NCBI GenBank assembly: GCA_007133495.1
Contig: SLMS01000230.1
Coordinates: 1 to 35,343, forward strand
Origin: Candidatus Sumerlaeota bacterium
GTDB lineage: Bacteria; Sumerlaeota; Sumerlaeia; SLMS01
DNA: 35,343 nt
Direction of reading: 5' to 3'
Shown here: piece by piece, positions 5,994 to 22,641 of the stretch
Position numbering within the stretch: the first letter of the stretch is position 1
Layout: every line of letters begins with the position of its first letter
Notes under the pieces: model-generated
Told to the model about the DNA's origin: nothing
What the model saw: the letters and a program-made list of their open reading frames with translations, nothing else
Database searches by the model: none
Made by a program: the position numbers and the translations under genes

Positions 5994-6551
5994 CTACCCC
6001 GCGCGCCGCACGAACGCCAGCCGCGTCATCCCGTATAGACGCTCATCCCCGCACTCCCACCCCCGCGGGAGCAACAAGTCCTCGCTCCGGTGCACCTCGC
6101 ACACCGCAAGCGTCTCCTCCGTGACGAACGGCCCCAGCTCCGCCGCCCCCAGCACCTTCGCACAAAGCCCCGAATGGTACGGCGGCATGAGCAGCAGCAG
6201 GTCCGCCTTCCCCTCCGGCAGCATGGCCCGCCGGAGAACTTCCGGCGCTGCGCCCTTCAGCACCTCGCACCGGTCATTGTAGCGTAGCTTGTCTATATTC
6301 GCCTGAAGGCAGCCGGCCGCCTGCGGAGCCGCCTCCGCGAACGTCACCCACGCCGCGCCGTTGCTCAGCGCCTCCAGCCCCACGGCACCGCTACCGGCGA
6401 ACACGTCCATCACCACCCCCCCCCCGATCGTGGGCCGCAGGATGTTGAACAGCGCCTCCCGCACGCGGCCCCGCAGCGGCCGCGTGTCCAGCCCCTCCGG
6501 CGTCTGCAGTTTCGTCCCGCGCCGCTCACCCGAAATGATCCGCACCGTCAC
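5994..6551 (-). CDS. rsmD: RsmD-like 16S rRNA (guanine-N2) methyltransferase
   Basis: A 185-aa SAM-dependent methyltransferase of the RsmD family, which methylates G966 of 16S rRNA during 30S assembly. It has the N-terminal RIISGERRGTKLQTPEG, the TRP-xx-RVREALFNIL element and SAM motif DVFAGSGAVGLEAL (49-62). The catalytic motif normally reads [D/N]PPY; here it is Met122-Pro-Pro-Tyr125 (codon at 6186-6188), so the usual acidic residue is missing. The GTG start at 6551 overlaps the upstream stop as GTGA and has AAGGAG seven bases upstream, so it is translationally coupled to the DUF374 gene. It is the last gene of the long minus-strand run. Confidence 0.85.
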   Translation of the reverse strand: MTVRIISGERRGTKLQTPEGLDTRPLRGRVREALFNILRPTIGGGVVMDVFAGSGAVGLEALSNGAAWVTFAEAAPQAAGCLQANIDKLRYNDRCEVLKGAAPEVLRRAMLPEGKADLLLLMPPYHSGLCAKVLGAAELGPFVTEETLAVCEVHRSEDLLLPRGWECGDERLYGMTRLAFVRRAG

Positions 6552-7282
6552 TCTTTCTCTCCTTGTGCAATCGGGCAGCCCACCTCCGCCGCGTCCGCCA
6601 GCATCTGCCGGCGCAACTCCCCCGCCAGCACATCCGCGTCCGCCTCCGCCTCCGGGAGCGGAAAGTCACGCAAGCGTATAGACACTCGTGAAAACGGCAG
6701 CGGCAGGAAAAGCCTGTCCCAGGAGCGGAACCGGATCGACTTCCGGCAGCCCACCGTAACGCTCACCACACGCGCCCGTGAAGCTCGGGCTATACGCACG
6801 AAACCCGGTTTCGGCACCGCCGCCGGGCCCCGCGGCCCGTCCACCGCAAGCAGCCCCACGTGCCCCGCCTCAATCTCGTTCACCAGCCCGAACGACCCCG
6901 CCGCCGCGCGGCTCTTCGACGAACCCTTCACCACCCGCAGCCCAATCGCCTGTATAGCCGCGTCCAGCACCAGCCCGTCCCTGCTCGGACTCGTCATGAC
7001 GCACGCCTCCCGTCCCACGCTCCGCGCCACCGCGGCGCACGGCATCAACGCGAAAAACATCCCGTGCCAGCACGCCACCAACAGCCGGTCCTCCGAAAGA
7101 TACATCCGCCGCAGCTCCTCCCTGCCCGCCGGGTCAAGCCGCCAGGTGCGCACAAGCACCCGCAGCAGCACCAGCCCCGCCGGAAGGAGTGCCTTCTCGA
7201 TGAAGGCGAACTTGAACGAACGCCAGGACGAACGCCCCTTCCGCGAGCGCGGCTTCCCTGCGGGCTTCGGAGAGGAACTCAT
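6548..7282 (-). CDS. DUF374 lysophospholipid acyltransferase family protein
   Basis: A 244-aa membrane-associated acyltransferase-like protein of the DUF374 group, often found with lipid A or envelope lipid genes; its substrate is unknown. After a basic N-terminus and a hydrophobic segment (about 31-46) come ACWHG with His73 (the likely catalytic His), SRDG (100-103), KGSS (119-122), DGPRGP (148-153) and SWDRLFLPLPFSR. The order and wording match DUF374 closely. The ATG at 7282 overlaps the upstream stop as ATGA; no separate ribosome site is evident, so coupling is likely. A GTATAGAC site at 7285 lies directly across the junction with the upstream gene. Confidence 0.87.
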   Translation of the reverse strand: MSSSPKPAGKPRSRKGRSSWRSFKFAFIEKALLPAGLVLLRVLVRTWRLDPAGREELRRMYLSEDRLLVACWHGMFFALMPCAAVARSVGREACVMTSPSRDGLVLDAAIQAIGLRVVKGSSKSRAAAGSFGLVNEIEAGHVGLLAVDGPRGPAAVPKPGFVRIARASRARVVSVTVGCRKSIRFRSWDRLFLPLPFSRVSIRLRDFPLPEAEADADVLAGELRRQMLADAAEVGCPIAQGEKE

Positions 7283-9462
7283 TCGTATAGACGCCGTGAT
7301 GCCTCATCAGGATCCAGCGGCACCAGCGAGGGACTCAGGTCCAACCCCGGCAGGAACCCCGCCTCCAGCCCCAGCGGGATGCGCTTGCGCGGCCGCGGCT
7401 TCGCCAACTCCTCCCGCACGGACTGCGTCCGCCGGCGCGGCTCCATCAGCGCCAGCACGCGCCCGAGCTGCTCCTCCGCCAGAGGCAGTTCGATCCGCCG
7501 GCCCGTCCTCCGGTCCACGTAGCTATACGCGCCGTAACGCAGCACCGCAACGCCCTCCCGGCCGATCTCCCCCGTCTCCCGCCGGCCGTCCAGCAGGTCC
7601 GGATTCAGATCGAGTGCATCCTCCCCCGCAAGCTCCGGCCAGGCGCGCAACTCCTCCCTGTCTATCACCGCAAGCGTGTCCGCTTCCCGCCGCGCATCGC
7701 GGAGGCTGCGCCTTACCCGGTCGTACCGCCGGTAATCCGGCCAGGCGTTCACGAGCCGCTCATACGCCCGCACGGCCAGCTCCGGAGTCGGCGCATTGTC
7801 GCCGCGCCGTTCCAGTTCCCGCGCCGCCCGGTGCCGCGCCCGCGCCGCCCGGCGTTCATCCCCCATTCGGTCGTATAGACCCGCCGCGTCCACGTACCGC
7901 CCCTCCCGCCGGTACGCCAGCCCCAGCCGCTGGCCCCACCACTCGCCATCCGGTGAAACGAACCAGTCCGGATCGACTGCCACCGCGGCATTGGGCAGTT
8001 CCGGCTCCGGAAACGGGTCCTGGAACGGCAGAAACAGCATCCGCGCCAGCCAATCCGTCAGAAACAACCCGCGCGCCCGCTCCACCAGCGTCGTGCGCCT
8101 CATGCGCGCCTCCTCCGCCGTCAACGAGCGCTCCAGCACCTGCGGGTCCCGCGCATGAAGTATATACCCCCACCACCGGCCATTGATCGTCCGCACCGCT
8201 TGGCGCAGCTCCGGCAGCGGATCATACTCCGGCTTCCGCAGTATCGCCTCAGCGCGTGCATCCCAGCCGCCGCGCGCAAACCGGCCCTCCAGGAGCTGCT
8301 CCAGCCGCACCGCCGCCAGCGGCCGATTCCCCTCCGCCTGCGCCACGGCCGCCTCCGCCGCGAGCGCCGCCGGCAGCGCCCGCGAGCCGGGATAACTCCG
8401 CTGATAGCCAGCCACGGCCTCCCGGAACGGCGGAAGGCCCTCCTCATAGTCCCGCAGCACCAGGTGCCGCACTATATCACGATAGACGCCGAACTCCTCC
8501 GGCGAACGGAACGACTCGCCGCCCTCCAGCACCTCGCGCGATGCAGTCCGCACCTCGCGCTCCTCCGCAAAACGCCGCAGCAGCTCGCGATGGCCGCTCC
8601 GCCGCACGCCGGTCCAGCCCTGAAGCTGAAGCTCCCGCTCGTACCAGAAAACCGCCGCCCAGTCCCGTCCCTGCTCCACCGCCCGCGCAGCATTCTGCCG
8701 CGCCTGCAGCGCCGCCACCCGCGTCCGCCGCTCCCCGAGCGAATCGAGCACCGTCTGCGCACGCTCCTCCGCACTGCCGGACGTGCCCACCGCCACCGCA
8801 CCCCTTGCAGTGTATAGCTCCCTCCGCTGCTCCGGCGTCAGGTATAGACGGCCAATGAACGCGTACTCGGCCACGTCGAACGGCAGGGAAAGCAGCGGGA
8901 AAATCTGCCCCTGCGCCAGCGACATCACGGGGTCGAGCGCCGCATTTACGGTGCGCTGAAGCCGCGCGTACCGCCGGTCCGCGCGCGCCTCAAGAAAACG
9001 CTGCCGCGGCTCCTCCCGCCGCAGGAGCTCCTCCATGTTCCGCGTCACCTGACTGCGCCGGTACCCGGAAAGCGTGCGCCGCTGCTCGCGCACGGTCGGC
9101 AGCGGCCGGTCCACCGAAGCCGAAAGCGCGGCAAGCGCGCTCGAAATTGGCCGCGGGACCGACCGCGCCGTCGTCGCCGCACGCTCCATCTCCCGCCGCT
9201 CTTCCGCCACGTCCCGCACCGCCTCCGCATCCCCCAGAACCGCCGCCCGCAGCGCCTGCTGCACCTGCCGCTCCGTCAGCCCAACCTCCCGCTCCTCCGC
9301 CGCATCCTCCGCCCACACCGGTGTATAGACAAAAAACCCGGCAAGCAGCAATGCGGCCACCAGGAAGCACCTGTTAAGCACAAACGCACCGCACCCGCTC
9401 TCACCCGGGCAGCCATGCCTGCGCCCTCTGTACAGCAAACCAGACGGAACCGCCCTCGTCAC
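7279..9462 (-). CDS. Secreted TPR-like hypothetical protein
   Basis: I do not recognise a named family. The 727-aa product begins with an Arg-rich n-region, a hydrophobic stretch (about 30-49, with VAALLLAGFFVYT) and a probable cleavage after VWA, so it should be exported. The rest is Arg/Glu-rich and helical, with A-x-x-x-R spacing typical of TPR or solenoid folds (for example around residues 330-400 and 500-560), ending in a Pro-rich tail. The GTG start at 9462 overlaps the previous stop (GTGA) and has GGGAGG six bases upstream, which decides the start despite the long n-region; a GTG at 9381 would give a more ordinary signal peptide. It holds four GTATAGAC sites (7285, 7873, 8842, 9323). 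Confidence 0.8.
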   Translation of the reverse strand: MTRAVPSGLLYRGRRHGCPGESGCGAFVLNRCFLVAALLLAGFFVYTPVWAEDAAEEREVGLTERQVQQALRAAVLGDAEAVRDVAEERREMERAATTARSVPRPISSALAALSASVDRPLPTVREQRRTLSGYRRSQVTRNMEELLRREEPRQRFLEARADRRYARLQRTVNAALDPVMSLAQGQIFPLLSLPFDVAEYAFIGRLYLTPEQRRELYTARGAVAVGTSGSAEERAQTVLDSLGERRTRVAALQARQNAARAVEQGRDWAAVFWYERELQLQGWTGVRRSGHRELLRRFAEEREVRTASREVLEGGESFRSPEEFGVYRDIVRHLVLRDYEEGLPPFREAVAGYQRSYPGSRALPAALAAEAAVAQAEGNRPLAAVRLEQLLEGRFARGGWDARAEAILRKPEYDPLPELRQAVRTINGRWWGYILHARDPQVLERSLTAEEARMRRTTLVERARGLFLTDWLARMLFLPFQDPFPEPELPNAAVAVDPDWFVSPDGEWWGQRLGLAYRREGRYVDAAGLYDRMGDERRAARARHRAARELERRGDNAPTPELAVRAYERLVNAWPDYRRYDRVRRSLRDARREADTLAVIDREELRAWPELAGEDALDLNPDLLDGRRETGEIGREGVAVLRYGAYSYVDRRTGRRIELPLAEEQLGRVLALMEPRRRTQSVREELAKPRPRKRIPLGLEAGFLPGLDLSPSLVPLDPDEASRRLYE

Positions 9463-10064
9463 CCGTCACCTCCCCCGCGTGCCCCCCTGATGCGCTCGGA
9501 GTCATCCTCCGTAAGGAACCCCGCCTGTACCATCTCCTCCAGTTCGAAATCGGACTTGTCCGCCAGCGCCACGAGCCGCTCCGGCAGCCGTTCCCCTTCC
9601 GGTTCCGGCGGCTCCGGCACCGGCGCACTCTCAACCGGCTTGGGGGCGGGCTTCGGCGGCTCCTCCTGCGCCTTTTCTTCCGGCTTCTCTTCCCCCTCGC
9701 GGCGCGCCTGCATCTCCATCTCCGCTAGCTGCAACGCCACTTCCGCCTTTGAGGGCATCTTCCGCGCCGCCTCCTGCGCCTCGCTCCGTTCCAGGAACTG
9801 CTTGCCCATCGTCCGCCGGATCGCCTTCACCTCCTCCTCCGACAGCCGGCCGGACGCGCGCAATTTGTCCAGATCCCGCGGGGACATACCGAACGGCGTC
9901 TCCATCCTCTCCACCCGCCGCGAAAAGTAATGCCGCAGCACACGCGTCAGGACAAACAGCAGCACCAGCGCAATCGCCACCCCGACCCCGGCGAAAAAAA
10001 CCGGGCGGATGCCCTCGTCGAAAAGGAACACGGTAAACGCCAGCAAACCGGCGGGAGAAGTCAC
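9459..10064 (-). CDS. Single-span membrane protein with two SHOCT-like motifs
   Basis: A 201-aa protein of unknown function. A membrane span lies at about 22-40 (run AGVGVAIALVLLFVL). Then comes a short helical motif (62-84, PRDLDKLRASGRLSEEEVKAI), a charged helix, a Pro/Glu/Lys-rich linker (about 125-160) and a second motif of the same shape at 172-193 (ELEEMVQAGFLTEDDSERIR). Both fit the pattern [DE]L-x-x-[LM]-x-x-[SA]-G-x-L-[ST]-E-[ED]-[ED], resembling the SHOCT oligomerisation motif. The GTG start at 10064 has GAGG eight bases upstream and follows the stop of the DnaA/TPR gene by ten bases. It overlaps the next gene by four bases. A membrane partner of the DnaA/TPR protein is possible but only inferred from position. 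Confidence 0.8.
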   Translation of the reverse strand: MTSPAGLLAFTVFLFDEGIRPVFFAGVGVAIALVLLFVLTRVLRHYFSRRVERMETPFGMSPRDLDKLRASGRLSEEEVKAIRRTMGKQFLERSEAQEAARKMPSKAEVALQLAEMEMQARREGEEKPEEKAQEEPPKPAPKPVESAPVPEPPEPEGERLPERLVALADKSDFELEEMVQAGFLTEDDSERIRGARGGGDG

Positions 10065-10074
10065 CGGAGAAACC

Positions 10075-13000
10075 TCAGGACACGAAATACTTCTCCACCA
10101 TACCGGTGGCGAGTTCGGGAGTCAGCGGGCTCCCGTCTATCTCGTTCAGTGTCAGGAGCTGGTTGAACGCGCCCTTCAGCTCCCGCACGTTCGAGGCAAG
10201 CCGCTCGGCAAGCACCTCCAGCACCTCCTCGTCCACGTCCACCCCGCGGCGCTTGGCCTCCTTCGTCAGAATCGCCAGCCGCGTTTCGAAATCCGGCGCC
10301 TGTATATCCACGATGACACCCTGCCCGAACCGGGAACGCAGGCGCATGTCCAGGTGCGCAATGTCCTTCGGCGGACGGTCGGACGTGACCACGATCTGCC
10401 GCCGCGCCTGGAACAGCATGTTGAAGATGTGGAAGAACTCCTCCTGGCTCCGCTCCTTCCCGGCAAGGAATTGCACGTCGTCCAGCAGCAGCACCTCCGC
10501 CTTGCGGTACTTGTTCCGGAAGGCGGTCGTCTTGTTCGCCTCGATCGCCTCCACCAGCTCGCTCGTGAAATACTCCGTGCTGCCATACACGATGCGGATG
10601 CCGGGTTTCAGCCTGGCCAACTCGTTGGCGATCGCGTGCAGCAGGTGCGTCTTCCCAAGCCCCACGTCCGAATAGAGAAAGAGCGGATTGCGCGCCGAGC
10701 CCGGCTGCTTCGCCACCGCCCGCGCCGTCGCGTAAGCGAAGTTGTTCTTCGTACCGACCACAAACGAATCGAAGTCGTACTCCGGCAGCACCTCAAGGCC
10801 CGGCAGTTCCGTCCCGGCCCCGTCCCCCGAAGCCGCACCCGTCGCGGGACCCGCCCCCGCGGGGGACTTCTCCATCAGATCCTGCAACGCCCGGTACTCC
10901 TCCAGCGCCTCATCCTTCTTCCCCATCTTGTCCAGCAACCGCGCCTTCTCCCGCCGCGCCGCCACGTGGTCCGGGTCCTTCCCCAGCACCTCCGAAAGCA
11001 TCTCCAGCGCCTTCGCCTGCTTGCGCTTGCGCGCCAGCAACGCCGCCAGCTCCACCGTCTCGCCAAGTGCCTCCTCACTCCGCCCCTGCTCCTCCAGTTC
11101 CGAGACGAGCAACTGCCGCAACGCCGGCTCCTCCGGCTGCAAAGCCACCGCATCCCGGTAGGCCGCCAGCACACCCTGTCCGTCGCCCTCCTCCTGCAGA
11201 GCGGCCGCCAGCCGGCGCAGTTCCGCCACGGCATCCTCCACACGGCCCGCCCGCCGCAACAGCGCCACCACATAACGCCGCGCCTCGTGGTTGGACGGCT
11301 CCTCCTCCAGTACCTCCCGCAGAATCTCCACCGCCTTCTCCGGCCGGCCCGCCTCCTCATGCACCGAGGCCATCTTCTTCAAAAGCGCGTGCGCGTCGTC
11401 CTCCCGCCCCATGTCCCGCAACAACGCCACGTGCGCGGCGGTGACTTTCTCATTCCCCGGGTCCAGCGCCTGCATCTCCTCGAACGCCGCCGCTGCATCC
11501 TCCAGCTTCCGGGCCTTCTGAAGCTGCCGCGCCAGCACAAGATAGTTCTCGATCGCCTCCGGCAGGCGCCCCGCCTGCTGCAGCGCATCCGTCAGCCCCG
11601 CCCGCAGCGAAATGTTCTCCGGCGCCTGCTTCACCGCCTCCTCGTATAGACGCAGGGCTTCCTCCTGTTCCCCCCGCTCCGCGTGCAGCCCGATCAGCGC
11701 CTCCCACTCCGCGGCGGCCTCATCCGCACGCCCCGCGCTGTGGTACAGCCCCGCCAGCGCCTTGCGGAAATCCGGCAGTCCCGGGTTCACCTCGATCCAG
11801 TCCCGCACAAGACGGATCTTCTTCTCCGTCTCCCCGGGCATCCAGTCCTCCAACTGCCTCAGCCGCAGTGCCAGGCCCTCCTCCTCACCCGCCTCCGCCA
11901 TCAGGCCGATCAGCTCCAGCAGCGGCTCCACCTCTCCCGGCTCAAGGTCCAGCAGCTTTCCCGCCGCGCGCGCCTGGCCCGCCTTCTGCCCCCGTTCCTT
12001 GTATAGACGGACAAGGTGCCGCAGGTGCTCCGCCGCCTTCTCCTTGTTTCCCGCCTCCTCGTAAAGCTCCGCCAGGTGCCGGTGGGCCGTCTCGTCCTCC
12101 GGCTCGAGTTCCACAATCCCCAGTGCGTGCTCCAGCGCCGCCTCACCGTCCCCCTTCGCCCGCAGCAACGAAACAAGCTGGTGCGAGGCGTCCACCACAC
12201 CCGTCGGCTCCCCCAGTTCCGCACAAATCCCCGACAGCAGCCCGAACGCCTCCAGGTCATCCTGCTCCAGCGCCGTCCACTGCTGCAACGCCTCGCGCGC
12301 CTCCGCCAGCCGCTCCGCCCCGCGCCATTCCTTGACCGCGGCGAAGAAGGCCTTCCTCGCCTCGTCAAGCCGCCCCCCGTTCCGGAGCGAGAACGCGTGC
12401 AGCAACCGCAGGGACGGGCTATCCGGCATCTCCTTCAGCAGCCCCTCCACCTCCTCCGGCGCCGCCGGCACTTCGCCCTGCTCCTCCGCGCGCCGCACCA
12501 GCGCGGAAAGCACCACCTCGCACCGGTCCGCCGCCCCCTCCCCGGCGTATAGACGTGCAAGAGGCATCGCCAGCCCCGGATGCCCCGGCACATCCCCCCG
12601 CAGCCCATCAACCAGCGCGAGGAACTCCTCCTGCCGCCCCGCCTCGCGAAACGCCGGCACCGCCTCCGCCAGCTCCGCGGCCGCCTGCACAAGCTCGCCC
12701 TCCGCGCGCCGCACCGCCAGGAGCCGCTTGTATAGACCAGGCTCCGCGGGCGCAGCCTCCATGCAGCGGCGCAGCAACTCCATCGTCTCGCCGTTGCCCC
12801 CCGCCAGTTCGCGCCCGGAGGCCAACAGCCCGTCCAGGGCCGCCAGCGCCTTCTTCGTCTCCTTCTGCCGCAGCAAAAGGTCCACGAGTATCTGACGGGC
12901 CCGCCGGTCGCCCGGATCGCGCTCCAGCAAAAGCTCCACAATGCTCTGCCCCGTCGCCGGCTGCCCCGCCTGGCCGTGCATCTCCGCAAGCCGGTACTCC

Positions 13001-14181
13001 AACTCCCGGCAAAGATCCTCCTCCCCCATCTCCCGGTAGCAGGCCACCATCTTCTGCACCGTACGCAGGTCCTCCGGCATCTCCGCGGCAAGGTAGCTCA
13101 GCGCCTCGGCCGCCGGTGCCAACCGGCCCGCATCCATCATCTCGCCGATTAGCCGATGGCAATCCTCCACAAGTCCTCCCTCCAACCCCGCCAGCAGCGC
13201 CAGCTCCACCACCTGCAGGCGCAGATCATCGTCCGCCGGCCCCGGCCGCACCGCGTCCCGCGCGATCTCCGTCGCCTCGCGATACCGCTCCTCCCGCCGG
13301 AGCTGCCCCAACCGCCGCCCCAGCTCCTCACGCGCCTCTTCATTGCGCCCCTGCGAGACCAGCAGCCCGTGGATCATCGGCTGCACGTCGATTGCGTCCC
13401 CCGCGATCTCCTCCACACGGCGGTACGCCGCCACCGCCTCCTCCACCCGGTGCTCCTGCTCCGCCACCTCCGCCAGCGTCATCAGCTCCGCCACCGCCTC
13501 GTCCTTCAGATCGAGGCCAAGCAGCGCGTCCACCAGGCCCCTTCGCACCGCGAGGTCCGGCGGATTCGACTCCAGGTACCGCTTCGCCACCTCCACAAGC
13601 TGCACCATGTTCCCCGCCGCACGCTCCATCTCCAGCAGGCGCCCCACATCCGGAGCCAGAACGAACACGTTCCCCTCCAGGTGCCGCGCCTCCACCAGCA
13701 GCCGCTGCGCTTCGAGGTACTCCGGATCCAGCTCCAGCGCCCGCCGCAGCCGCTTTACTGCCTCCTCAAGGGCCACCGCATCCGGGGGGGACTTCTTCCG
13801 CGCTTCCTCGATCAGGCGCCCCGCTTCCTCGAACAGCTCCACGGCCGCCTGATCCGACTTGTCTTCCAGCAGGTGGATGCCGAACTCATCCGCCAGCCGC
13901 TCCACCGCCGCGTCCAGGTCCAGACGCCGGCAGCGCGCGAACAGATCGATCAGCGTCCCCGACTGCGGCGGCATGTCCGGCGGCTCCGAACGGAACTCCT
14001 TCGTCTCCGCGTTCACGTTCAGGTACCGGCCCCCCAAGTCCTGACAGAGCGGGCAGAACGACTTGATCAGCGGCCCGCTTCGTTGAATCGACTCGGGATG
14101 GAAGTCGATCAGCTCCAGAACGTCCAGCGCATCCAGATGCGCCAGCAAATCGTCGATAACGTGTTGGGAGTACTTGCCCAT
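10075..14181 (-). CDS. CHC2-like zinc-finger / TPR / DnaA domain III fusion protein
   Basis: A 1368-aa cytoplasmic protein with an unusual architecture. Residues 8-103 resemble the zinc-binding (CHC2) module of DnaG: IDDLLAHLDALDVLELI, then C43-PL-C46, then SGTLIDLF and a terminal AVERLADEFGI. The second Cys knuckle is lost. About 120-1110 is a long array of TPR-like helix pairs (repeated A-x-x-x-Y/L-x-x-x-L-E-x-x-P signatures). After a Gly/Ala/Pro linker, about 1132-1368 is a DnaA domain III ATPase: Walker A GLGKTH (Lys1177), Walker B LLLDD (1234-1235), sensor I TSDRPP, Arg-rich box LRSRF and sensor II SNVREL (Arg1333). It stops there, without the DNA-binding domain IV, as in Hda. The ATG at 14181 is chosen because the CHC2 homology starts beside it; no strong ribosome site is visible. 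It lies between leuS and the SHOCT-motif gene. Function unknown. Confidence 0.9.
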   Translation of the reverse strand: MGKYSQHVIDDLLAHLDALDVLELIDFHPESIQRSGPLIKSFCPLCQDLGGRYLNVNAETKEFRSEPPDMPPQSGTLIDLFARCRRLDLDAAVERLADEFGIHLLEDKSDQAAVELFEEAGRLIEEARKKSPPDAVALEEAVKRLRRALELDPEYLEAQRLLVEARHLEGNVFVLAPDVGRLLEMERAAGNMVQLVEVAKRYLESNPPDLAVRRGLVDALLGLDLKDEAVAELMTLAEVAEQEHRVEEAVAAYRRVEEIAGDAIDVQPMIHGLLVSQGRNEEAREELGRRLGQLRREERYREATEIARDAVRPGPADDDLRLQVVELALLAGLEGGLVEDCHRLIGEMMDAGRLAPAAEALSYLAAEMPEDLRTVQKMVACYREMGEEDLCRELEYRLAEMHGQAGQPATGQSIVELLLERDPGDRRARQILVDLLLRQKETKKALAALDGLLASGRELAGGNGETMELLRRCMEAAPAEPGLYKRLLAVRRAEGELVQAAAELAEAVPAFREAGRQEEFLALVDGLRGDVPGHPGLAMPLARLYAGEGAADRCEVVLSALVRRAEEQGEVPAAPEEVEGLLKEMPDSPSLRLLHAFSLRNGGRLDEARKAFFAAVKEWRGAERLAEAREALQQWTALEQDDLEAFGLLSGICAELGEPTGVVDASHQLVSLLRAKGDGEAALEHALGIVELEPEDETAHRHLAELYEEAGNKEKAAEHLRHLVRLYKERGQKAGQARAAGKLLDLEPGEVEPLLELIGLMAEAGEEEGLALRLRQLEDWMPGETEKKIRLVRDWIEVNPGLPDFRKALAGLYHSAGRADEAAAEWEALIGLHAERGEQEEALRLYEEAVKQAPENISLRAGLTDALQQAGRLPEAIENYLVLARQLQKARKLEDAAAAFEEMQALDPGNEKVTAAHVALLRDMGREDDAHALLKKMASVHEEAGRPEKAVEILREVLEEEPSNHEARRYVVALLRRAGRVEDAVAELRRLAAALQEEGDGQGVLAAYRDAVALQPEEPALRQLLVSELEEQGRSEEALGETVELAALLARKRKQAKALEMLSEVLGKDPDHVAARREKARLLDKMGKKDEALEEYRALQDLMEKSPAGAGPATGAASGDGAGTELPGLEVLPEYDFDSFVVGTKNNFAYATARAVAKQPGSARNPLFLYSDVGLGKTHLLHAIANELARLKPGIRIVYGSTEYFTSELVEAIEANKTTAFRNKYRKAEVLLLDDVQFLAGKERSQEEFFHIFNMLFQARRQIVVTSDRPPKDIAHLDMRLRSRFGQGVIVDIQAPDFETRLAILTKEAKRRGVDVDEEVLEVLAERLASNVRELKGAFNQLLTLNEIDGSPLTPELATGMVEKYFVS

Positions 14182-14329: not shown

Positions 14330-16924
14330 CTACCCGATCACGTTCACCAGCCGGCCTGGCACCACCACCACCTTGCGCGGGTCGCGATCCCCGAGGTTCT
14401 TCCGGATTTTTTCACTGCCGAGAGCCGCCCGCTCCAGCTCCTCGCGCGAGGCATCCTTCGCCACCGTCACCCGGTCCCGCACCTTGCCGTTGAACTGAAT
14501 CGCGATCTCAATTTCATCTTCGACCGTCAACTCCTCCCGGTACTCGGGATAGCGGCCCGACGTCCAGATGCTCTCCGGCTTGCCCAGCGCCTCCCGCCAG
14601 ATTTCCTCTGCGAAATACGGCGCGAACGGGGCCAGACAGAGCACAATCGTCTCGCGCAGGAAATCGCTCAACGCCTCCGCTGCGCGTGCCTCGTTGAAAA
14701 GCTCCATGATTGCCGCGATCGCCGTGTTGTACGCGAGCTGGTCTATATCCCCCCGCACCTTGCGGATCGTCTTGTGCGTCTTCACCCTCAGCGGCCGCGG
14801 AAGCTCCTCATCCGGTACCACCGGCTGATTGCTCCCGAAATACCACGAATGCAGCCGGTTCAGGAAGCGCCGCGCCCCCTGTATATCCTTGTCGCGGAAG
14901 TCGCCCCCCTGAAGGTACGGCCCAAGGAACATCAGATACAGGCGCAGCGTATCCGCGCCATGGACGTCCACGTACTCGTCCGGATTCACCACGTTGCCCT
15001 TGGACTTGGACATCTTGGCCCCGTCCTTCACGATCAGCCCGTGCGCACGGAATTTCCGGAACGGCTCACCCCGGTCCTTCATTTCCGGACGTTCGCCCAT
15101 CTCCAGAGCCCCCGCCTCCGTCAGCGCAAGACAGATGAAACGCGTATACAGCAAATGCAGCACAGCATGCTCGTTCCCGCCAATATACATATCCACCGGC
15201 AGCCATTTGCGGATCAGCTCCGGGTCGTAGGGCCTGTCCGGATCATTCGCCGAAACGTAACGCAAATAATACCACGCCGAATCGAGGAAATTATCCATCA
15301 CGTCGGTATCCCGCGTGGCTGGCCGGCCGTCCGGCAGCGTCGCTTTCAACCATTCCGTAGCGTTCGCCAGCGGCCCGCGCCCGTCCCCCTTCGGACGGAA
15401 ATCCTCAACGTCCGGCAATGTCACCGGAAGCTGATCCTCCGGCACCGCGTACGGATTCCCCTCCTCATCATACACGATCGGCACCGGCGGGCCCCAGTAC
15501 CGCTGCCGGCTGATGCCCCAGTCCCGCAACCGGTAGGTCGTCTCCGCCTTCCCGATTTTTTTCTCCACGAGCCACCGGACGATGCGCTGCTTCGCCTCCT
15601 CCACCGGCAGGTCGTTCAGCGAGACCTCATCGTTCTCACTGTTAATTGCATTCCCGGAACCTGTCCAGCAAAGATCACCCTCCAGCACGGACTGACGAAT
15701 CTGATGTGGCGTCAACCCGTCCTTCTGTTGCCCGGAAGTAAGCTGCAACTCCTCCACCGCCTTGATGTCCGGATTGAAGACCGGGCGAATCGGCAGCCCG
15801 AAACGCTTCGCAAAAGCGAAATCCCGGTCATCGTGCGCCGGCACCGCCATGATCGCCCCCGTGCCGTATTCCATCAGCACGTAGTCGGCTATATAGACAG
15901 GAATCTCCTCTCCAGTGGCGGGGTTGACAGCATGAGCGCCAATATCAACACCCGTCTTGTCGGTATCCGGCGGCGTGTCATCTGCCCTGTTCACTTTGTC
16001 GGAATCGACAACCTCCTGGGCCTGTCCCTTCTCCTCCTCTTCGCGCCGGCGCTCCGTTTCCTCCCGGTAGCGCGCGATCTCCTCGCTTTTTTCGGGGTCG
16101 GCAATCTTGTCCACCAGCGGGTGGTCCGGCGCCAGCACCATGTACGTCGCACCGAAAAGCGTATCCGGCCGCGTCGTAAATACAGGAATCGACTCCGTCT
16201 TGCCGGCGACAGCGAACCTGATCTCCGCACCTGTGGACTTTCCGATCCAGTTAAGCTGCGCCAGCTTCGTCTTCTCCGACCAGTCCAGCCAATGAAGATT
16301 CCGCTCCAGCCGCTCCGCAAACGCCGTCGTCCGGAAGAACCAGCAAGGCATTTTCCGCCGCTGCACCGCCGTCTCGGGATGCCGCTCGCAAGTTCCCTCC
16401 GGCAGCACCTGCTCGTCGGCGATCACCGTCCCGCACTCCGGGCAGAAATTCACCTCCTTCACGTCCTTGTACGCAAAACCAGCCTTGTATAGCTGAAGAA
16501 AAACCCACTGCGTCCATTTATAGTATTCCGGCGAGGTCGTATCCACCATGTGCCGCCAGTCGAACATGAACCCCATCATCTTGAGCTGGCGCGTAAAATT
16601 CGCCACGTTCTCCGGCACCAGCTCCTTCGGGTGCCGGTTCACCTTCATCGCGAAGTTCTCCGAATGAATCCCGAAAGCATCGAATCCGATCGGCTCAAAA
16701 ACGTCCCGCCCGCGCAGCCGCTGATGCCGGCCGTGCACGTCCGCACCCGTAAAAGCATAGACGTTCCCCACGTGCAGCCCTTCGGCGCTCGGGTAGGGAA
16801 ACATCATCAGCACATAGTACGGATCAGTGGCCGCACCGAGATCAATCTCGTTGACCTTGTTTTCTTCCCACCGCTGCTGCCATTTTTTCTCAACCGCTGC
16901 CGGATCGTAAGAGCGTTCGGCCAT
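14330..16924 (-). CDS. leuS: Leucyl-tRNA synthetase
   Basis: An 864-aa class I aminoacyl-tRNA synthetase charging tRNA-Leu. It has the N-terminal MFPYPSAEGLHVGN (the HIGH-type signature, residues 51-54 reading HVGN instead of HxGH). It also has a CP1 editing domain (TTRPDTLFGATYMVLAPDHP and the downstream DDRDFAFAKRF), the catalytic-core motif WGISRQRYWG, the MDNFLDSAWYYLRY block, KMSKSKGN and a C-terminal anticodon-binding plus tail region. Length is normal for bacterial LeuRS. The ATG at 16924 has GGGAG about five bases upstream. It begins the minus-strand run that continues 148 bases later with the DnaA/TPR gene. The 171-base spacer upstream has a short GTCAGGG tandem and no obvious promoter. 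Confidence 0.96.
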   Translation of the reverse strand: MAERSYDPAAVEKKWQQRWEENKVNEIDLGAATDPYYVLMMFPYPSAEGLHVGNVYAFTGADVHGRHQRLRGRDVFEPIGFDAFGIHSENFAMKVNRHPKELVPENVANFTRQLKMMGFMFDWRHMVDTTSPEYYKWTQWVFLQLYKAGFAYKDVKEVNFCPECGTVIADEQVLPEGTCERHPETAVQRRKMPCWFFRTTAFAERLERNLHWLDWSEKTKLAQLNWIGKSTGAEIRFAVAGKTESIPVFTTRPDTLFGATYMVLAPDHPLVDKIADPEKSEEIARYREETERRREEEEKGQAQEVVDSDKVNRADDTPPDTDKTGVDIGAHAVNPATGEEIPVYIADYVLMEYGTGAIMAVPAHDDRDFAFAKRFGLPIRPVFNPDIKAVEELQLTSGQQKDGLTPHQIRQSVLEGDLCWTGSGNAINSENDEVSLNDLPVEEAKQRIVRWLVEKKIGKAETTYRLRDWGISRQRYWGPPVPIVYDEEGNPYAVPEDQLPVTLPDVEDFRPKGDGRGPLANATEWLKATLPDGRPATRDTDVMDNFLDSAWYYLRYVSANDPDRPYDPELIRKWLPVDMYIGGNEHAVLHLLYTRFICLALTEAGALEMGERPEMKDRGEPFRKFRAHGLIVKDGAKMSKSKGNVVNPDEYVDVHGADTLRLYLMFLGPYLQGGDFRDKDIQGARRFLNRLHSWYFGSNQPVVPDEELPRPLRVKTHKTIRKVRGDIDQLAYNTAIAAIMELFNEARAAEALSDFLRETIVLCLAPFAPYFAEEIWREALGKPESIWTSGRYPEYREELTVEDEIEIAIQFNGKVRDRVTVAKDASREELERAALGSEKIRKNLGDRDPRKVVVVPGRLVNVIG

Positions 16925-17095: not shown

Positions 17096-18556
17096 TCAGG
17101 TGTTCGCCCAGTGCGGCCTCAGGAACGGATGCTCTTCCGGGGGCCGGTGCTCCAGCCCCGCCGCATGCTCCAGTACCGTCTCCACAAAATCGAGCGACCC
17201 CCCCAGCACCGGCGTGATCAGCTTCCCCGTCTGCCCGCGCAGGTCGTCCAGCGTCAGGTCGTCCAGGAACCGCTCATCGTACCGCCGCAGGCAATTGCCC
17301 GGCAGCAGATACTGGTCGTAGGACGGATTGTGCCGCACTGCCTTCCCGAGGTCCGAGCCGCACAGCAGCCCCGTCACGTGAATTGACTCCCCGAAGAGCG
17401 TATTCGTCACCGGGATCACGTCCACCGTCAGCCCCTCGCACCGGTGGCACAGGTCCACCACTTTCTTCAGCACCGGCGGGCTCAGCGTCGAGGTCAGCGC
17501 CGCCACCCGCCACGGCCGCGGCAGCTTCTCCGGCATGAGCTTCCTCGCCTCGGCGAAATCCTTGTAGAAGTGATAAACCATGCCCACGCCGTTCTCGAGC
17601 TGGGGCAGGTCCGGATAGCGGCTATAGCTTGGCGGGCGCTGCCCCGCGATCAGGAACCACTCGTCCGCCAGCAGCGCCAGCGGCTCGCCGAACTGCGCCT
17701 CGATCTCCCGCAGCCGCGGCTTGATCTCCCGGAGGAATTTCCGCGCGTACGCCCGGTCCACCGCCCGCAGCTCCGGCAACCCCTCGCGCCACTTCGTCAT
17801 CCCCACCGGCACGATCGCAATGCTCTGCACCGTCGGGTGAAACGACACCAGCGTCTCCAGCGTCCGCTCCAGCTCCTTCCCGTCGTTCACGTCCGGCGTC
17901 AGCACGATCTGCGTGTGCATCTGGAGCCGGTGCCGGCGGAAGAACCTCAGCAGGTCCAGGAATGGCCGCGCCTTCTTGATCCCCAGCAGGTACTTCCGTA
18001 CGTCCTCGTCGATCGCGTGCGCCGAAAGGTACAGCGGCGTGAGCCGCTGCCGGGCGATGCGCTCAAGGTCGGAGTCCTTCAGGTTCGTCCCCGTGATGTA
18101 CGAACCCTGCATGAAGCTCAGCCGGTAGTCCTCGTCCTTCACGTAAAGCGACTTGCGCATGTGGTCCGGAAGCTGGTGCACGAAGCAGAACACGCAATTG
18201 CACCCGCAGTGCTGCGTGGTGAACTGCTCCACCTCCACGCCCAGGTGGTCCTCCGGCACTTCCTTGCGCAGGAAGACGACCCGGTGCTCCCCCGCCTCCG
18301 ATTCCAGCTCGATCTCCAGCTCCTCGTCCGCCCCGTGGAAGAAGAAATCCACCGTGTCGCGAACCGGCTCGCCGTTGATCAGCAGCAGCTTGTCCCCCGG
18401 CCGGAAGCCGGCGCGCTCCGCCATGCTTCCCGGATAAACGTGCGCCACACGCACGCCGGGAGGCATCTCCGCGACAGCGACGGAGGCGGGAAGGGTCAGG
18501 CTGGGGTCCGCGCGGGCAAGCCTCTTGCGCAGGGTGCTCCGTGGGGGGTTAGTCAA
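17096..18556 (-). CDS. PDZ / radical SAM / DUF512 protein
   Basis: A 486-aa member of the DUF512 (TIGR03279-type) family, a putative radical-SAM iron-sulfur enzyme of unknown substrate. An N-terminal PDZ-like domain (about 31-98, with PGSMAERAGFRPGDKLLLINGEP split over its carboxylate loop) is followed by the cluster motif C117-xxx-C121-xx-C124 (CGCNCVFCFVHQLP) and then the DUF512 region with LSAHA, YLLPGNCLRRYDERFLDD and the C-terminal GG-x-LDFVE. The start is TTG at 18556: it overlaps the propeller-gene stop by eight bases and has GGAG six bases upstream, so coupling is clear. It is the last gene of the S55-propeller-DUF512 set. Confidence 0.9.
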   Translation of the reverse strand: MTNPPRSTLRKRLARADPSLTLPASVAVAEMPPGVRVAHVYPGSMAERAGFRPGDKLLLINGEPVRDTVDFFFHGADEELEIELESEAGEHRVVFLRKEVPEDHLGVEVEQFTTQHCGCNCVFCFVHQLPDHMRKSLYVKDEDYRLSFMQGSYITGTNLKDSDLERIARQRLTPLYLSAHAIDEDVRKYLLGIKKARPFLDLLRFFRRHRLQMHTQIVLTPDVNDGKELERTLETLVSFHPTVQSIAIVPVGMTKWREGLPELRAVDRAYARKFLREIKPRLREIEAQFGEPLALLADEWFLIAGQRPPSYSRYPDLPQLENGVGMVYHFYKDFAEARKLMPEKLPRPWRVAALTSTLSPPVLKKVVDLCHRCEGLTVDVIPVTNTLFGESIHVTGLLCGSDLGKAVRHNPSYDQYLLPGNCLRRYDERFLDDLTLDDLRGQTGKLITPVLGGSLDFVETVLEHAAGLEHRPPEEHPFLRPHWANT

Positions 18557-20645
18557 GCGTTACTCCAAGACGTGCTGTGTTGCCGTTCTCGTCCGTGGCG
18601 AACAGGGTGATCATTTTGCCGCTGCGGGCGTCCTCCCCCTCCAGCGTGAAGGCAAAGGACTCGCGCCGCTGATCGAAAAAGCCGTCCTCCGGCTTCAGCA
18701 GCCTCATTTCGCCAGTTCCGGGCCGGTAGGAGGCGGAGCCGATCAAGCTCGTCGCATCCTCCGCCTCGAACTCCACCCGCACCGACTCGGAGCCCCGCCG
18801 TTCCACGTCCACCAGCCGCAGCTCGGGCACCGTGTTGTCGATCAGGAAAAGCGGGCTCTCCTTCACCGCCTGCAGGCCCTCCCCCACCGGGTAGCTCTTC
18901 ACATCGCTCGCAGTGACCCGCGCCCGGTACTCCCCGTCGGCAAGGTTCCGCGTGTCCAGCGTATAGCTGCTCGACGACAGATCCTCCTCCAGCGTCATCC
19001 AGTTGTCCGTCCCTGCCGGCTTGATCTGCACCGTATAGACGAGCGACTCGCCCCCCGGCTCCTCCGCCGACCAGGTAATCTCCTTCCGCCCCGTGTTCGA
19101 ATGCGGCTCCACGTTCACCCGCACCGGGTTGCGCTGCTGCTGGGCGCCACTGCCGCCAGCGCCACCAGGCGAGCCCACACGCACCGACTCGATCACCGGC
19201 GGCTCATTCGCACGCCGGTAGAACACCCGCATCCGCTCCAGCTCGGGAAGAACCGCCTGGTCCGCATTCGAATCAAGCTTGAACTCCACCCGGTATTGGA
19301 AGAAACGGCTGATTGGACCGTCCGTCAGGTAGTCCCCCGCCGCGAAGTCCGCCGAATCCGACCAGTCCGTCCAGTTGTCGTCCGGCTTCGCCGTGTTTCC
19401 GCTCCGAGTGGAGACGAGGACCTCGCCCTCCCCCGTATAGACATGCCCGAGCAGCCGGCCCCAGCGGACCGTTCCCCGCCCGTCGAAAACACGGGACAGA
19501 TACGCCCCTTCTCCCCGTTCCGCCGCGCGCATCCGGTAAACCGCCGCCTCCGAGCCCGTCCCCATCAGCAGCCGGTTGTTCGCCCCGGTAGCGAGCCGCG
19601 TCACAAACTCCTCGCGCGCCACGCCCGCGCTGTTCTTCTCCCCGTCAGCCGTCACCAGGAAGATGCTCCCCCCGGAGCCCGCCGAAACGATCATTCCGCC
19701 GTCCTCCAGCGGGTAGATGTCGTGGATCGGCGGTTCGGGCGATTTCCACCACTCCCGCATCATCCCATCGGGGTAAATCCGCGCCAGGAAGGACTCCGGC
19801 TGCGGCTGCTGATTCCCCCGCGCCTGCCCCTCGTCCGGTCCGCGGGACAGCAGCTCCTGCCCCGGCGAGCGGATCGCGTTCACAGCCGCCACGATCGACC
19901 CGTCCTCCAGCACAGCCACCCGGCGCACCTCCTCCGACTCGGGGTCCAGCAGCACCGTGGAGTTCCCCTCAGCCGTCACCCGAAGTACCTGCCCGGGGCC
20001 CTGCGTCACCGCCAGCACCCCCTCGCCATCCGGCGCCGGCGCGAGTTGCATGACGTTCAGCGTCTCCTCGAACTCGATAATCGTCTCCACCTCGCCGCCA
20101 TTGTCCACACGGACGATCGATGCCGGCGAACCCGTGGCCGCCCAGACCGCACCGTCGTGCCGCAGCAAGTCCCAGATGATCTCCGCCTCGGTCTCCGCGA
20201 AGACCTCCACCTCGCCATCCTCGTTCACGCTGTATATCTTGCCGCCGGGACTCGCCGCCGCCAGCACCCCGCCGTCCGGGCCTTCCGCCAGCGCGTAGAT
20301 CGCCGACTCCTCGAACTCGTGCAGCATCTCCGGCTCTTCCTCGTGCATCCGCCGGAAAAGCCGGCCGTCATGACCTGTCGCCACGTATAGATAGTCACCG
20401 GTCTCCAGAATGTCCCACACCACCGCCGCGTCGAACTCGTCCAGCTTCACCTTGGGGTGTGGCGGCTGGACAGTGCCGCGGGAGGTCACGATGCTGTCCC
20501 GGATGTCGCCCCGGGCAAAGTCCTCGGGCCGGTCATCCAGAAAGAACTCCGTCTGGGCGGCCGGAGCACCGCCCCCCAGGGCAAGGCTCACGCAGAATGC
20601 GGTTGTATAGACGAAGGCATTACGGCTCAAGAACTGGTTCCTCAT
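18549..20645 (-). CDS. Secreted beta-propeller protein with C-terminal Ig/FN3-like region
   Basis: About 698 aa, exported: the n-region MRNQFLSRN and a hydrophobic core end near APAAQ. Residues about 60-400 are successive four-strand blades with phrases such as DYLYVATGHDGRLFR, AVWAATGSPASIVRVD and NRLLMGTGSEAAVYR, as in WD40/SMP-30/NHL-like propellers. The rest has beta-sandwich patterns (NEPPVIESV, ITWSAEEPGGESLVYTVQ, DGEYRARVTASD, DNTVPELRL), like FN3/cadherin modules. The ATG at 20645 lies inside the end of the S55 gene; an ATG at 20666 is equally possible and neither has a good ribosome site. The family is not recognised more precisely. A sensory or ligand-binding role next to a protease-like protein is inference. 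Confidence 0.8.
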   Translation of the reverse strand: MRNQFLSRNAFVYTTAFCVSLALGGGAPAAQTEFFLDDRPEDFARGDIRDSIVTSRGTVQPPHPKVKLDEFDAAVVWDILETGDYLYVATGHDGRLFRRMHEEEPEMLHEFEESAIYALAEGPDGGVLAAASPGGKIYSVNEDGEVEVFAETEAEIIWDLLRHDGAVWAATGSPASIVRVDNGGEVETIIEFEETLNVMQLAPAPDGEGVLAVTQGPGQVLRVTAEGNSTVLLDPESEEVRRVAVLEDGSIVAAVNAIRSPGQELLSRGPDEGQARGNQQPQPESFLARIYPDGMMREWWKSPEPPIHDIYPLEDGGMIVSAGSGGSIFLVTADGEKNSAGVAREEFVTRLATGANNRLLMGTGSEAAVYRMRAAERGEGAYLSRVFDGRGTVRWGRLLGHVYTGEGEVLVSTRSGNTAKPDDNWTDWSDSADFAAGDYLTDGPISRFFQYRVEFKLDSNADQAVLPELERMRVFYRRANEPPVIESVRVGSPGGAGGSGAQQQRNPVRVNVEPHSNTGRKEITWSAEEPGGESLVYTVQIKPAGTDNWMTLEEDLSSSSYTLDTRNLADGEYRARVTASDVKSYPVGEGLQAVKESPLFLIDNTVPELRLVDVERRGSESVRVEFEAEDATSLIGSASYRPGTGEMRLLKPEDGFFDQRRESFAFTLEGEDARSGKMITLFATDENGNTARLGVTLD

Positions 20646-22641
20646 GCGGTTGGAGTTGGTCCTCATGCGGCGGGACCGGGCGCCTTTCTGGTTCCTCCTC
20701 CGGCAGCCACTCGCCAAAGCGGTCTGCCGGGTCCAGCACTTCAATCTCGATCACGGCGTTGCCCATCAGTTCGGCATCGAACTCGACCCGCTCCTCGGAG
20801 AGCAGCCGGCCACGCGCCGTCCCCGTGCCGCCCGTCTCCCGCACCGTCTGCCGGATCGTAAAGTCAACGCTCCTCGGCAGCGACGGCATCCGCCGGTCCC
20901 GCATCGTCAGGTCCTCCCGCGGGTCCACCAGCAACACGTGCGCGGCGTTGCGCGGGAAAACCGGTTCCGCCCGCCGCAGCAGATCATCCAGCGATTCCAC
21001 CCGGTCCAGCTCGGGACGGAACTGCCGTTCGAGCTGCCCCCGCCGGCCACCGTCCACAACGTGAACCTCATAATGCCCCGGGCGCAGGTCCCCCGGCAGC
21101 TCCACTTCAATACCCATCCATTCCTTCTGACCGCGCCAGGTAAGGAACTCCACACCCCCGCGGAACGTCTCCCCCGGATAGAGCCGCTGGGCGCGCCGCT
21201 CCACACGCTCAAGCGCCATCAACTGCTGGCGCGGCACCATCTCCAGCCGCGCAGAGATCGAATCCACCTTCACCGGCTCGAACCGGTTGTTCACCAACCG
21301 GCCCACGTCGTTCGACATCTGTACAGCCGCCAGCATTCCCGCCATCGATTCACCCGACAGGTACTCCTGCCGTGACATCGTCCGCCCGTCCGCAAGCCGC
21401 ACGTCATACTCCACGTGCAGGCTCATCGGCCCGGACGTCCGCGACACCTCGTCCAGCGATTCGATCAGGCAGATCAGCGCCAACTGCGGCAGGAAATTCC
21501 GGTTCTCCCACAGCCGGAAGTTGTACTCCCGCGACCGCTCCGTATCCCCGGCCGAAACACTCACCTCCATCGGCACCAGCCGCGCCCGGCTCGCAAACGT
21601 CGCCCCGATCGCCGGCCGCCGGTCCTGCCGCAGCGCACCCACCTCCCTCACCACGTTCCCGAGCTTGAAGGGCATCATCATCGACGGGATCACCGTCACC
21701 ACCTCCGCCAGCGCCACCGGTGCATCCATCGGCCCCATCCCCATGAACGGGTGCCCGTAGGCAATCATCCGGTCACCCTCCACCAGCGTCGTCGTCCCGA
21801 TCCCCGCCAGCTTCAGGTCACCATCCGCCAGCAGCACGCTCACCGCGCTGCCATTCTCCATCGGGATGTCTTCCATTCCTTCCTCGCCGCGCCGGTCACC
21901 AATCCCGCCGCCCTGCGCGCCCGCCATCACCGGCGTGAACGCCGTATCGGCGAAAAGCTCCTCCAGCTTCTCCATCACCAGCGGGTTCGTGCTGCTCACC
22001 AGAAGCGGCGTCGTCAGCGGCTTGAGCCTCGCCGCCTCGCCCTCGGCCGCCGCGTCCTCAAGGCCGAACTCCCGAAGCTGCCGCGCCGGAATCCGCACCG
22101 GCTCCAGCGCCTGACGTGCCGCCTCGTCCTCACGCTCCGGCCACACCGCAGGCGGCATCTCGTCATCGCCCAACTGCGGCTCCGCCGTCACAAGCTCCAG
22201 CACCCCCAGCATATCCCCGATCGGCGTGATCCCGCAGATCGCCCGCCGCTGGAAAGACCAGCCGTAGGCCACCGCACCGATCAGTTTGTCATCCACAAAA
22301 ACCGGGCTGCCGCTCATCCCCGAAATGACGCCCATCTCTTCCAGCACCGGGTGCGACAGTTCCGCCACGATCAGGTCGCTCCCCACGAACCACTCCTTCA
22401 GGACGCCCTTGATCTCCACGTCGAACCGCTCGGTCCCCGTCCCGGAGAACACGGTCAGACCGTAGCCGGTCATCCCCGGCGAAAGCTCGTCCGGCGTCAT
22501 GGTCTGGAGGGGGGGGCTCTCTTCGGGGCCCTCCTCGGCGAAAACCGGCGTGAACGCCGCAAAGACCGGCAGGGCAACAAGTAGGGAAAGCAGGCGAAGT
22601 GGCAAGTTCGGACCACCCTTTGGCGGGTTGCGTTCGTGCAT
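20620..22641 (-). CDS. SpoIVB-type (S55) serine peptidase domain protein, exported
   Basis: A 673-aa protein with an N-terminal signal (LRLLSLLVALPVFAAF, about 16-31). It carries the S55 block: PGMTGYGLTVFSGT, then ELSHP with His97 and GVISGMSGSPVF with the nucleophile candidate Ser110, followed by KLIGAVAYGW. A later segment (YGHPFMGMGPMDAPVALAEVV) is typical of the larger relatives of SpoIVB in non-sporulating bacteria. The C-terminal half is beta-rich and unassigned. I start at the ATG at 22641; the frame is open further upstream but would run into the divergent miaA start. Its end overlaps the propeller gene by about 26 bases. Since SpoIVB controls sporulation, its role here must differ; envelope proteolysis is a guess. 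Confidence 0.85.
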   Translation of the reverse strand: MHERNPPKGGPNLPLRLLSLLVALPVFAAFTPVFAEEGPEESPPLQTMTPDELSPGMTGYGLTVFSGTGTERFDVEIKGVLKEWFVGSDLIVAELSHPVLEEMGVISGMSGSPVFVDDKLIGAVAYGWSFQRRAICGITPIGDMLGVLELVTAEPQLGDDEMPPAVWPEREDEAARQALEPVRIPARQLREFGLEDAAAEGEAARLKPLTTPLLVSSTNPLVMEKLEELFADTAFTPVMAGAQGGGIGDRRGEEGMEDIPMENGSAVSVLLADGDLKLAGIGTTTLVEGDRMIAYGHPFMGMGPMDAPVALAEVVTVIPSMMMPFKLGNVVREVGALRQDRRPAIGATFASRARLVPMEVSVSAGDTERSREYNFRLWENRNFLPQLALICLIESLDEVSRTSGPMSLHVEYDVRLADGRTMSRQEYLSGESMAGMLAAVQMSNDVGRLVNNRFEPVKVDSISARLEMVPRQQLMALERVERRAQRLYPGETFRGGVEFLTWRGQKEWMGIEVELPGDLRPGHYEVHVVDGGRRGQLERQFRPELDRVESLDDLLRRAEPVFPRNAAHVLLVDPREDLTMRDRRMPSLPRSVDFTIRQTVRETGGTGTARGRLLSEERVEFDAELMGNAVIEIEVLDPADRFGEWLPEEEPERRPVPPHEDQLQPHEEPVLEP

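Follow-up and report, generated by a model that had tools for sequence, protein, structure and literature searches.

DnaA is regarded as a single-purpose initiator of replication, and to our knowledge the known relatives that lack its domain IV, such as Hda and DnaC/DnaI, all serve replication too. Hda and HdaA carry a DnaA-type AAA+ domain without domain IV, and Hda is a short protein with a clamp-binding N-terminus. Helicase loaders of the DnaC/DnaI type and IstB belong to a related AAA+ subclass. The stretch of DNA analysed here (the window, 35,343 nucleotides from a Candidatus Sumerlaeota bacterium) encodes a protein that joins a DnaG-type zinc ribbon, a TPR solenoid and domain III of DnaA in a single chain. 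The features are as follows:

7279..9462, (-) strand: 727-aa gene after the partner, of no known family, with a signal-like hydrophobic segment at the N-terminus
9459..10064, (-) strand: partner gene, 201 aa, GTG start about 10 bases past the fusion stop
10075..14181, (-) strand: coding sequence of the CHC2-TPR-DnaA(III) protein, 1368 aa, ATG at 14181, stop at 10075-10077
10090..10794, (-) strand: DnaA domain III (AAA+), residues 1130-1364 (PF00308, TIGR00362, PDB matches, Foldseek, conservation)
10852..13854, (-) strand: TPR solenoid of ~1000 residues, residues ~110-1110 (Pfam TPR_19 and other TPR models)
13867..14181, (-) strand: DnaG-type CHC2 zinc-ribbon domain, residues 1-105 (PF01807 in homologues, hhalign, AlphaFold2)
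14330..16924, (-) strand: leuS (leucine--tRNA ligase), upstream neighbour

An open reading frame check confirmed 1368 open codons starting from the ATG at 14181. A longer, TTG-started frame reaching 14241 is also present, but the 1368-aa version is preferred because homologues begin at the same Met. An earlier, sequence-only reading of this DNA had proposed the three-part order, which is confirmed and borne out by Pfam, profile-profile comparison and homologues; the residues it had named (C43/C46, K1177, D1234/D1235 and R1333) were located in the translation as it had stated. It had also guessed that the architecture is undescribed, and indeed no published description of a CHC2-TPR-DnaA(III) protein was found in the open-access literature searched. 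Since the genome assembly is only 88.7% complete and split into 344 contigs, an assembly artefact, a pseudogene or a chance fusion has to be considered. However, the identical architecture recurs without stops in dozens of genomes, including the single-contig assembly G035, and this conservation refutes such an origin, whose probability we regard as practically nil.

Domain III scores and folds as that of a DnaA. Pfam Bac_DnaA (PF00308) matches residues 1134-1292 with 4e-63, the PDB matches are DnaA structures, and the predicted model folds like domain III of B. subtilis DnaA (8bv3; Foldseek TM-score 0.89 over the target). As in DnaA, Walker A and B, sensors I and II and the Arg finger are kept, in line with the intact AAA+ motifs reported by the sequence-only reading. 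In the window protein, these motifs comprise K1177 (Walker A), D1234-D1235 (Walker B), R1284 (Arg finger) and R1333 (sensor II), and the four are invariant in 31/31 members. Residues K1242/R1244 form part of the ISM, in which K243 and R245 (E. coli numbering) are the residues that bind single-stranded DNA in DnaA, with V211 also counted. Most members keep them (V or I at the V211 position in 29/31, K243 in 30/31, R245 in 25/31), with partial loss in the L009/L010 members. Next to sensor II, the family has substitutions of its own, E337K and R342Q, and the first glycine of Walker A is changed as well.

The protein ends with domain III. In all homologues whose C-terminus is intact, the chain ends no more than about 25 residues from that boundary and domain IV (the DnaA-box-binding helix-turn-helix) is missing; a six-frame search of the window yielded no remnant of it (best tblastn E 4.1). 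Because of this missing remnant and the ends of the homologues, a frameshift near 10075, which had been considered as a cause, is excluded. The fusion differs from DnaA in lacking domains I and IV, with the TPR solenoid and CHC2 ribbon in their place, and it forms a clade separate from all true DnaAs sampled.

The sequence-only reading had likened this ATPase without DNA binding to Hda, a comparison that we abandon. A role in RIDA, stimulating the hydrolysis of DnaA-ATP as Hda does, would fit a domain III that lacks domain IV and keeps its Arg finger. However, the fusion scores three times higher against the DnaA model TIGR00362 (2.3e-93, 313.6 bits; cut-off 343.9) than against the Hda model TIGR03420 (97.3 bits; cut-off 194.8), its fold is DnaA-like, its ISM is kept in most members and its N-terminus is the CHC2-TPR module. 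Moreover, the family has no conserved sliding-clamp-binding motif: the matches to it are sporadic, do not align and fall within the TPR solenoid. Membership in Hda is rejected on the family scores and the missing clamp motif, and an Hda-like activity, judged from sequence, would be very improbable. Most likely, the fusion is neither an origin-binding initiator nor an Hda. Helicase loaders and IstB, which give weak family matches to the fusion, exist as ordinary, separate genes in the same genome: two further weak Bac_DnaA matches there (L003, L004) were recognized by reading their sequences as a DnaC/DnaI-type loader and an IstB-like ATPase.

The N-terminus is collinear with the CHC2 domain of DnaG (PF01807) over ~100 residues; the family shares the CPxH first knuckle with it and, in the predicted model, the order of helix-helix, five-strand ribbon and helix-helix; the primase catalytic domain of DnaG is missing after the ribbon. 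PF01807 matches the window member at only 12.1 bits (E 0.42), under the gathering cut-off, but is matched by 11/14 family members (best 1.6e-7), and many members pass the cut-off, as the ribbon mostly does outside the window's own family. Comparison with DnaG ribbons by hhalign gave 98.4% probability for the whole family and 96.9% for the window's own family. Thus, a CHC2-like N-terminus holds by homology. The AlphaFold2 model of residues 1-191 (pLDDT 86) has the order helix-helix-five strands-helix-helix; the Foldseek matches listed for it were mainly TPR structures with E > 0.1, which neither support nor refute a ribbon. The module had been called degenerate, with a CHC2 layout and a single Cys pair. 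This description is correct for the window protein, whose family f1 has lost the second Cys pair and kept C43 and C46, but members outside f1 carry a complete ribbon, CPxH…CxxxxC, with all four zinc ligands (the second knuckle being C-x4-C as compared to C-x2-C in DnaG). That is, going by the residues present, the degeneracy appears as a local loss within f1, and the form typical of the phylum is complete. The predicted stretch of ~1000 residues of TPR-like helices between ribbon and domain III is also real: Pfam TPR models (TPR_19, 3.8e-50) cover much of the region up to residue ~1100. A separate CHC2-TPR family of 2600-3100 aa, without the ATPase, adjoins exported SPOR-domain proteins. In Hydrogenedentota, the ribbon profile matches almost solely frames of DnaG length, and a CHC2-TPR architecture was accordingly rejected for that phylum.

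The fusion is present in 35/40 Sumerlaeota genomes, nearly all of which also carry a normal dnaA. The window's own genome has both dnaG and a normal dnaA, whose domain IV was seen, as the sequence-only reading had suggested checking; this dnaA lies on another contig than the fusion. In the loci seen, the fusion is not encoded together with dnaA or dnaN. Directly downstream on the same strand, 17 examined loci and also G023 and G026, altogether 19 genomes from seven families, have the gene for a partner protein with one predicted transmembrane segment near its N-terminus and two SHOCT-like helical hairpins in its cytosolic part; SHOCT (PF09851) matches 4/8 partner members (best 6.6e-9), the window member not among them. 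The partner occurs in 35/40 genomes, almost always as a single match, and is not adjacent to the fusion in families f3, f7, f8, f9, f12, f13 and f14. In genome G034 (92% complete), the partner is present and the fusion was not detected. The 727-aa gene follows only in families f1 and f2, and leuS is not conserved beside the fusion in other families, nadC being found there in f8, f11, f12 and f14. None of the neighbouring genes points to a particular pathway.

Another DnaA family without domain IV, MshEN-DnaA(III), is found across the phylum Hydrogenedentota. Like the fusion, it ends in DnaA domain III, lacks domain IV (20/20) and is phylum-wide with a different N-terminal module, here MshEN instead of CHC2-TPR; in contrast to the TPR-DnaA family, it has lost the ISM residues and lies within a pilB-pilT operon, directly upstream of pilB/pilT-type ATPases (pilus motor genes) in 20/20 loci. 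In the tree, true DnaA occupies one side of a branch (100/97), with TPR-DnaA and MshEN-DnaA, the latter on a long branch, on the other. The two are sisters in the best tree when it is rooted within the true DnaAs, and AU tests did not reject separate origins (p-AU 0.17 and 0.098). It is therefore a tentative and rather doubtful idea that both descend from a single DnaA paralogue lineage without origin recognition, which membrane machines would have adopted as an AAA+ assembly switch, with a CHC2-TPR arm in Sumerlaeota and c-di-GMP-type MshEN in type IV pilus motor operons of Hydrogenedentota. If so, DnaA would have a non-replicative sister family. Domain III matches in Fimbriimonadales and Planctomycetota turned out to be genuine DnaAs with a tail of domain-IV length.

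The sequence-only reading had left two options, a regulator of replication or a scaffold that reuses the AAA+ switch elsewhere. The gene neighbours and the parallel family in Hydrogenedentota lead us to favour the latter, without settling the matter. Our main reading, with a probability of roughly 45%, is that this DnaA-derived ATPase without domains I and IV works beside the inner membrane as a scaffold for ATP-gated assembly, possibly one still in contact with single-stranded DNA. It builds on the intact residues for nucleotide binding, hydrolysis and the Arg finger, the missing domain IV, the TPR region, the ribbon and the adjacent SHOCT membrane protein. With domain IV, the ATPase would have lost its recognition of the origin, and with domain I its means of recruiting the helicase. 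Its heads may self-assemble in the ATP state by way of the Arg finger, much as DnaA does in its filaments. The TPR arm would gather client proteins, ribbon and ISM would hold a nucleic-acid strand or some other partner, and the SHOCT protein would tether the complex to the membrane. Phylum-wide conservation beside a normal dnaA, a domain III nearly as conserved as that of true DnaA (mean pairwise identity 58%, as compared to 63% in the same 16 genomes), the branch that sets true DnaA apart, the adjacency of the nearly always single-copy partner, the MshEN-DnaA parallel and the CHC2-TPR proteins encoded beside SPOR-domain genes all suggest such a scaffold. Counting against it, the ISM and a primase-type ribbon, both typical of contact with single-stranded DNA, would suit work on DNA more than a function confined to the envelope; the lack of a pathway-naming neighbour, the seven families with a non-adjacent partner and the partner without fusion in G034 weigh on the same side.

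A regulator of replication, whose domain III would co-oligomerise with true DnaA as a decoy, cap or membrane tether of DnaA filaments or of the unwound origin, holding single-stranded DNA via ISM and ribbon, is an unlikely but serious contender. It would account for the retained AAA+ interface, Arg finger and ISM residues, the DnaG-type ribbon and the co-occurrence with normal dnaA, but sits poorly with the separation from dnaA and dnaN, the missing clamp motif, the distinct clade with its changes beside sensor II and in Walker A, and the fact that family f1 lost the zinc site yet kept the gene. Membership in a type IV pilus, secretion or motility machine, as the MshEN-DnaA loci and the conditional sister relationship of the two families would suggest, appears improbable. 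Sumerlaeota genomes do contain 9-24 T2SSE ATPase matches each, but none of those listed adjoins TPR-DnaA, no pilB/pilT was noticed beside it in the loci examined, the ISM is lost in one family and kept in the other, and separate origins were not rejected. Genomes without the fusion had not lost their T2SSE genes as well, since T2SSE is present in all 40.

If the scaffold reading is true, a phylum-wide, origin-blind DnaA ATPase, carried on a protein-binding scaffold and linked to a membrane protein, and its parallel in pilus motor operons of another phylum would mean that the DnaA switch has been put to use beyond the initiation of replication. They would also form a natural experiment, in which the residues of domain III needed for ATP-driven assembly could be told from those needed for DNA.

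The fusion, hereafter TPR-DnaA, heads a group of genes on the minus strand of the window:

10075-14181 (-), fusion gene, an uninterrupted frame of 1368 residues
9459-10064 (-), SHOCT partner gene directly downstream; product with a single transmembrane helix plus a pair of SHOCT-like hairpins
7279-9462 (-), exported 727-aa protein with no Pfam or NCBIfam match

Pfam and NCBIfam assign residues 1116-1364 to DnaA domain III (PF00308, 4e-63; TIGR00362, 2.3e-93) and TPR repeats to much of the ~1000 residues preceding it. All motif residues named by the sequence-only reading, K1177, D1234/D1235 and R1333 among them, occupy the positions it gave them, and the absence of domain IV was borne out: the C-terminus coincides with the end of domain III and no remnant occurs anywhere in the window. 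Without domain IV a DnaA protein can no longer recognise DnaA boxes, and without domain I it lacks the known helicase contact; we classify the fusion as a DnaA-type AAA+ protein and not as a DnaA initiator.

Database searching placed the close relatives in Sumerlaeota. TPR-DnaA was found in 35 of 40 Sumerlaeota genomes and not detected in G010, G011, G031, G034 and the deep-branching G039. In the loci read, the N-terminal domain and domain III share a single uninterrupted frame in 26 genomes, the frames measuring 927 to 2160 residues. In genome G028 (locus L073), a CHC2-TPR part (6536-8179) and a TPR-DnaA part (7974-13229) occupy overlapping frames, the result either of a frameshift or of genuine splitting of the gene. 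Nearly all genomes of the phylum search, fusion carriers included, also possess a normal DnaA, with domain IV present in the copies read, and PF01807 is matched above cut-off in 38/40, the best match mostly lying within a DnaG-length frame; the window's own genome has both dnaA and dnaG.

The N-terminus had been described as a degenerate primase zinc finger. Its primase-type character stands, whereas degeneracy applies to the window's own family, f1, only. Members of the other families carry a complete C/H/C/C ribbon with a C-x4-C second knuckle (approximately CPIHxE...FRTLIID...FRCSYSLCPGxxGGDLIxLYAL). PF01807 was matched by 11 of 14 family members (best E 1.6e-7), with no match to any other Pfam family, and profile-profile comparison with DnaG ribbons, represented by two sequences only, reached 98.4% with the phylum alignment and 96.9% with f1 by itself. 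The simplest reading is therefore that the zinc site is ancestral and was lost in f1. The top solved structure, Aquifex DnaG (2au3), is a weak match (E 0.042). An AlphaFold2 model of residues 1-191 (pLDDT 86) comprises two helices, five short strands, two helices and the first TPR; TPR helices dominate its Foldseek comparison, with no primase among the matches listed. The same ribbon and TPRs, without the ATPase, recur in a second Sumerlaeota family of 2600-3100 aa (L094:3673-12978, L095:3480-12710, L096:4359-12215, L098-L101 and others), whose genes often adjoin one for an exported protein of ~900-1200 aa, with a SPOR domain in both scanned.

None of the 31 members compared varies at the Walker A lysine, the Walker B aspartates, the sensor I aspartate, the Arg finger or the sensor II arginine; the first Walker A glycine is Ser or Ala in 28. 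Positions binding single-stranded DNA (E. coli numbering) are mostly retained (V211 as V/I in 29/31, K243 in 30/31), R245 being present in 25/31, a higher share than among the sampled true DnaAs (16/26). Substitutions peculiar to the family adjoin sensor II (E337K, 29/31; R342Q, 30/31). Mean pairwise identity of domain III is 58%, as compared to 63% for true DnaA from the same genomes.

A second DnaA family without domain IV, fused to MshEN, occurs in at least 50 of 68 Hydrogenedentota genomes. Its tail beyond domain III measures 3-18 residues in the 20 loci read, and, unlike TPR-DnaA, it has lost the single-strand-binding residues. The loci noted for it include:

L020:6735-8537 and 20 Hydrogenedentota loci (L132, L144-L147, L149-L163), MshEN-DnaA genes with pilB/pilT-type ATPases directly downstream, often a sigma-54 response regulator

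A T2SSE ATPase gene directly follows it in 20/20 loci, and the usual arrangement is mshEN-dnaA, pilB, pilT, one more gene and a sigma-54 response regulator; genome G077 departs in detail, its nearest T2SSE ATPase being labelled PilT with a spurious opposite-strand frame in between. In these Hydrogenedentota loci a type IV pilus operon has a DnaA-type ATPase as a conserved member. Additional dnaA copies in Planctomycetota carry a domain-IV-length tail (16/16 read), and nearly all Armatimonadota genomes with a match have a single dnaA. In domain III trees including DnaA from seven phyla, true DnaA (100/97), TPR-DnaA (98/89) and MshEN-DnaA (100/100) each fall on one side of a branch. The latter two are sisters provided that the root falls among true DnaAs; AU tests did not reject separate origins (p 0.17, 0.098), and a single origin is therefore not established. 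In the open-access papers searched, among them the Sumerlaeota/Hydrogenedentota genome papers PMC8092238 and PMC10866078, no description of either architecture was found.

Anatomy, distribution and linkage of TPR-DnaA are the demonstrated part of this account, and the mechanism proposed below is inferred throughout. The SHOCT partner adjoins it, in the same orientation, in 17 of the loci examined as well as in G023 and G026, spanning f1, f2, f4, f5, f6, f10 and f11; where not adjacent, one copy lies elsewhere in most genomes. Overall the partner occurs in 35/40 genomes, a few by weak matches; Pfam SHOCT or SHOCT_2 matches several members and not the window's own. The ~700-residue exported protein comes next only in f1 and f2. 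We favour, at a probability of about 45%, an ATP-gated, membrane-linked scaffold: the retained Arg finger and complete ATP switch suggest ATP-dependent self-assembly, the TPR arm would bind client proteins, and the SHOCT partner would provide the membrane link. Given the kept binding residues and the primase-type ribbon, single-stranded nucleic acid may be a ligand.

A regulator acting on DnaA or the origin, with which the DnaA-type ATPase and retained single-strand positions would be compatible, is a less probable reading; among the conserved neighbours seen, none is a replication gene. Action in the manner of Hda is very improbable: the C-terminal model, of moderate quality (pLDDT 71), resembles domain III of B. 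subtilis DnaA (TM 0.89 over the target), with Hda far behind, although TPR-DnaA and Hda share an ATPase without domain IV. A pilus or secretion role, for which the MshEN-DnaA operons offer a parallel in another phylum, appears unlikely. Sumerlaeota possess a large set of pilus/secretion motors: each of the 40 genomes has between 9 and 24 matches to T2SSE-type ATPases.

Two further window genes deserve mention; SpoIVB peptidase S55 is best known from sporulating lineages, outside which the host lies:

20620-22767 (-), protein of 715 aa, matching SpoIVB peptidase S55 over a short stretch (PF05580, 6.8e-8)
17096-18556 (-), TIGR03279-type protein combining PDZ, radical SAM and DUF512 (1.1e-114, short of the cut-off for that family)
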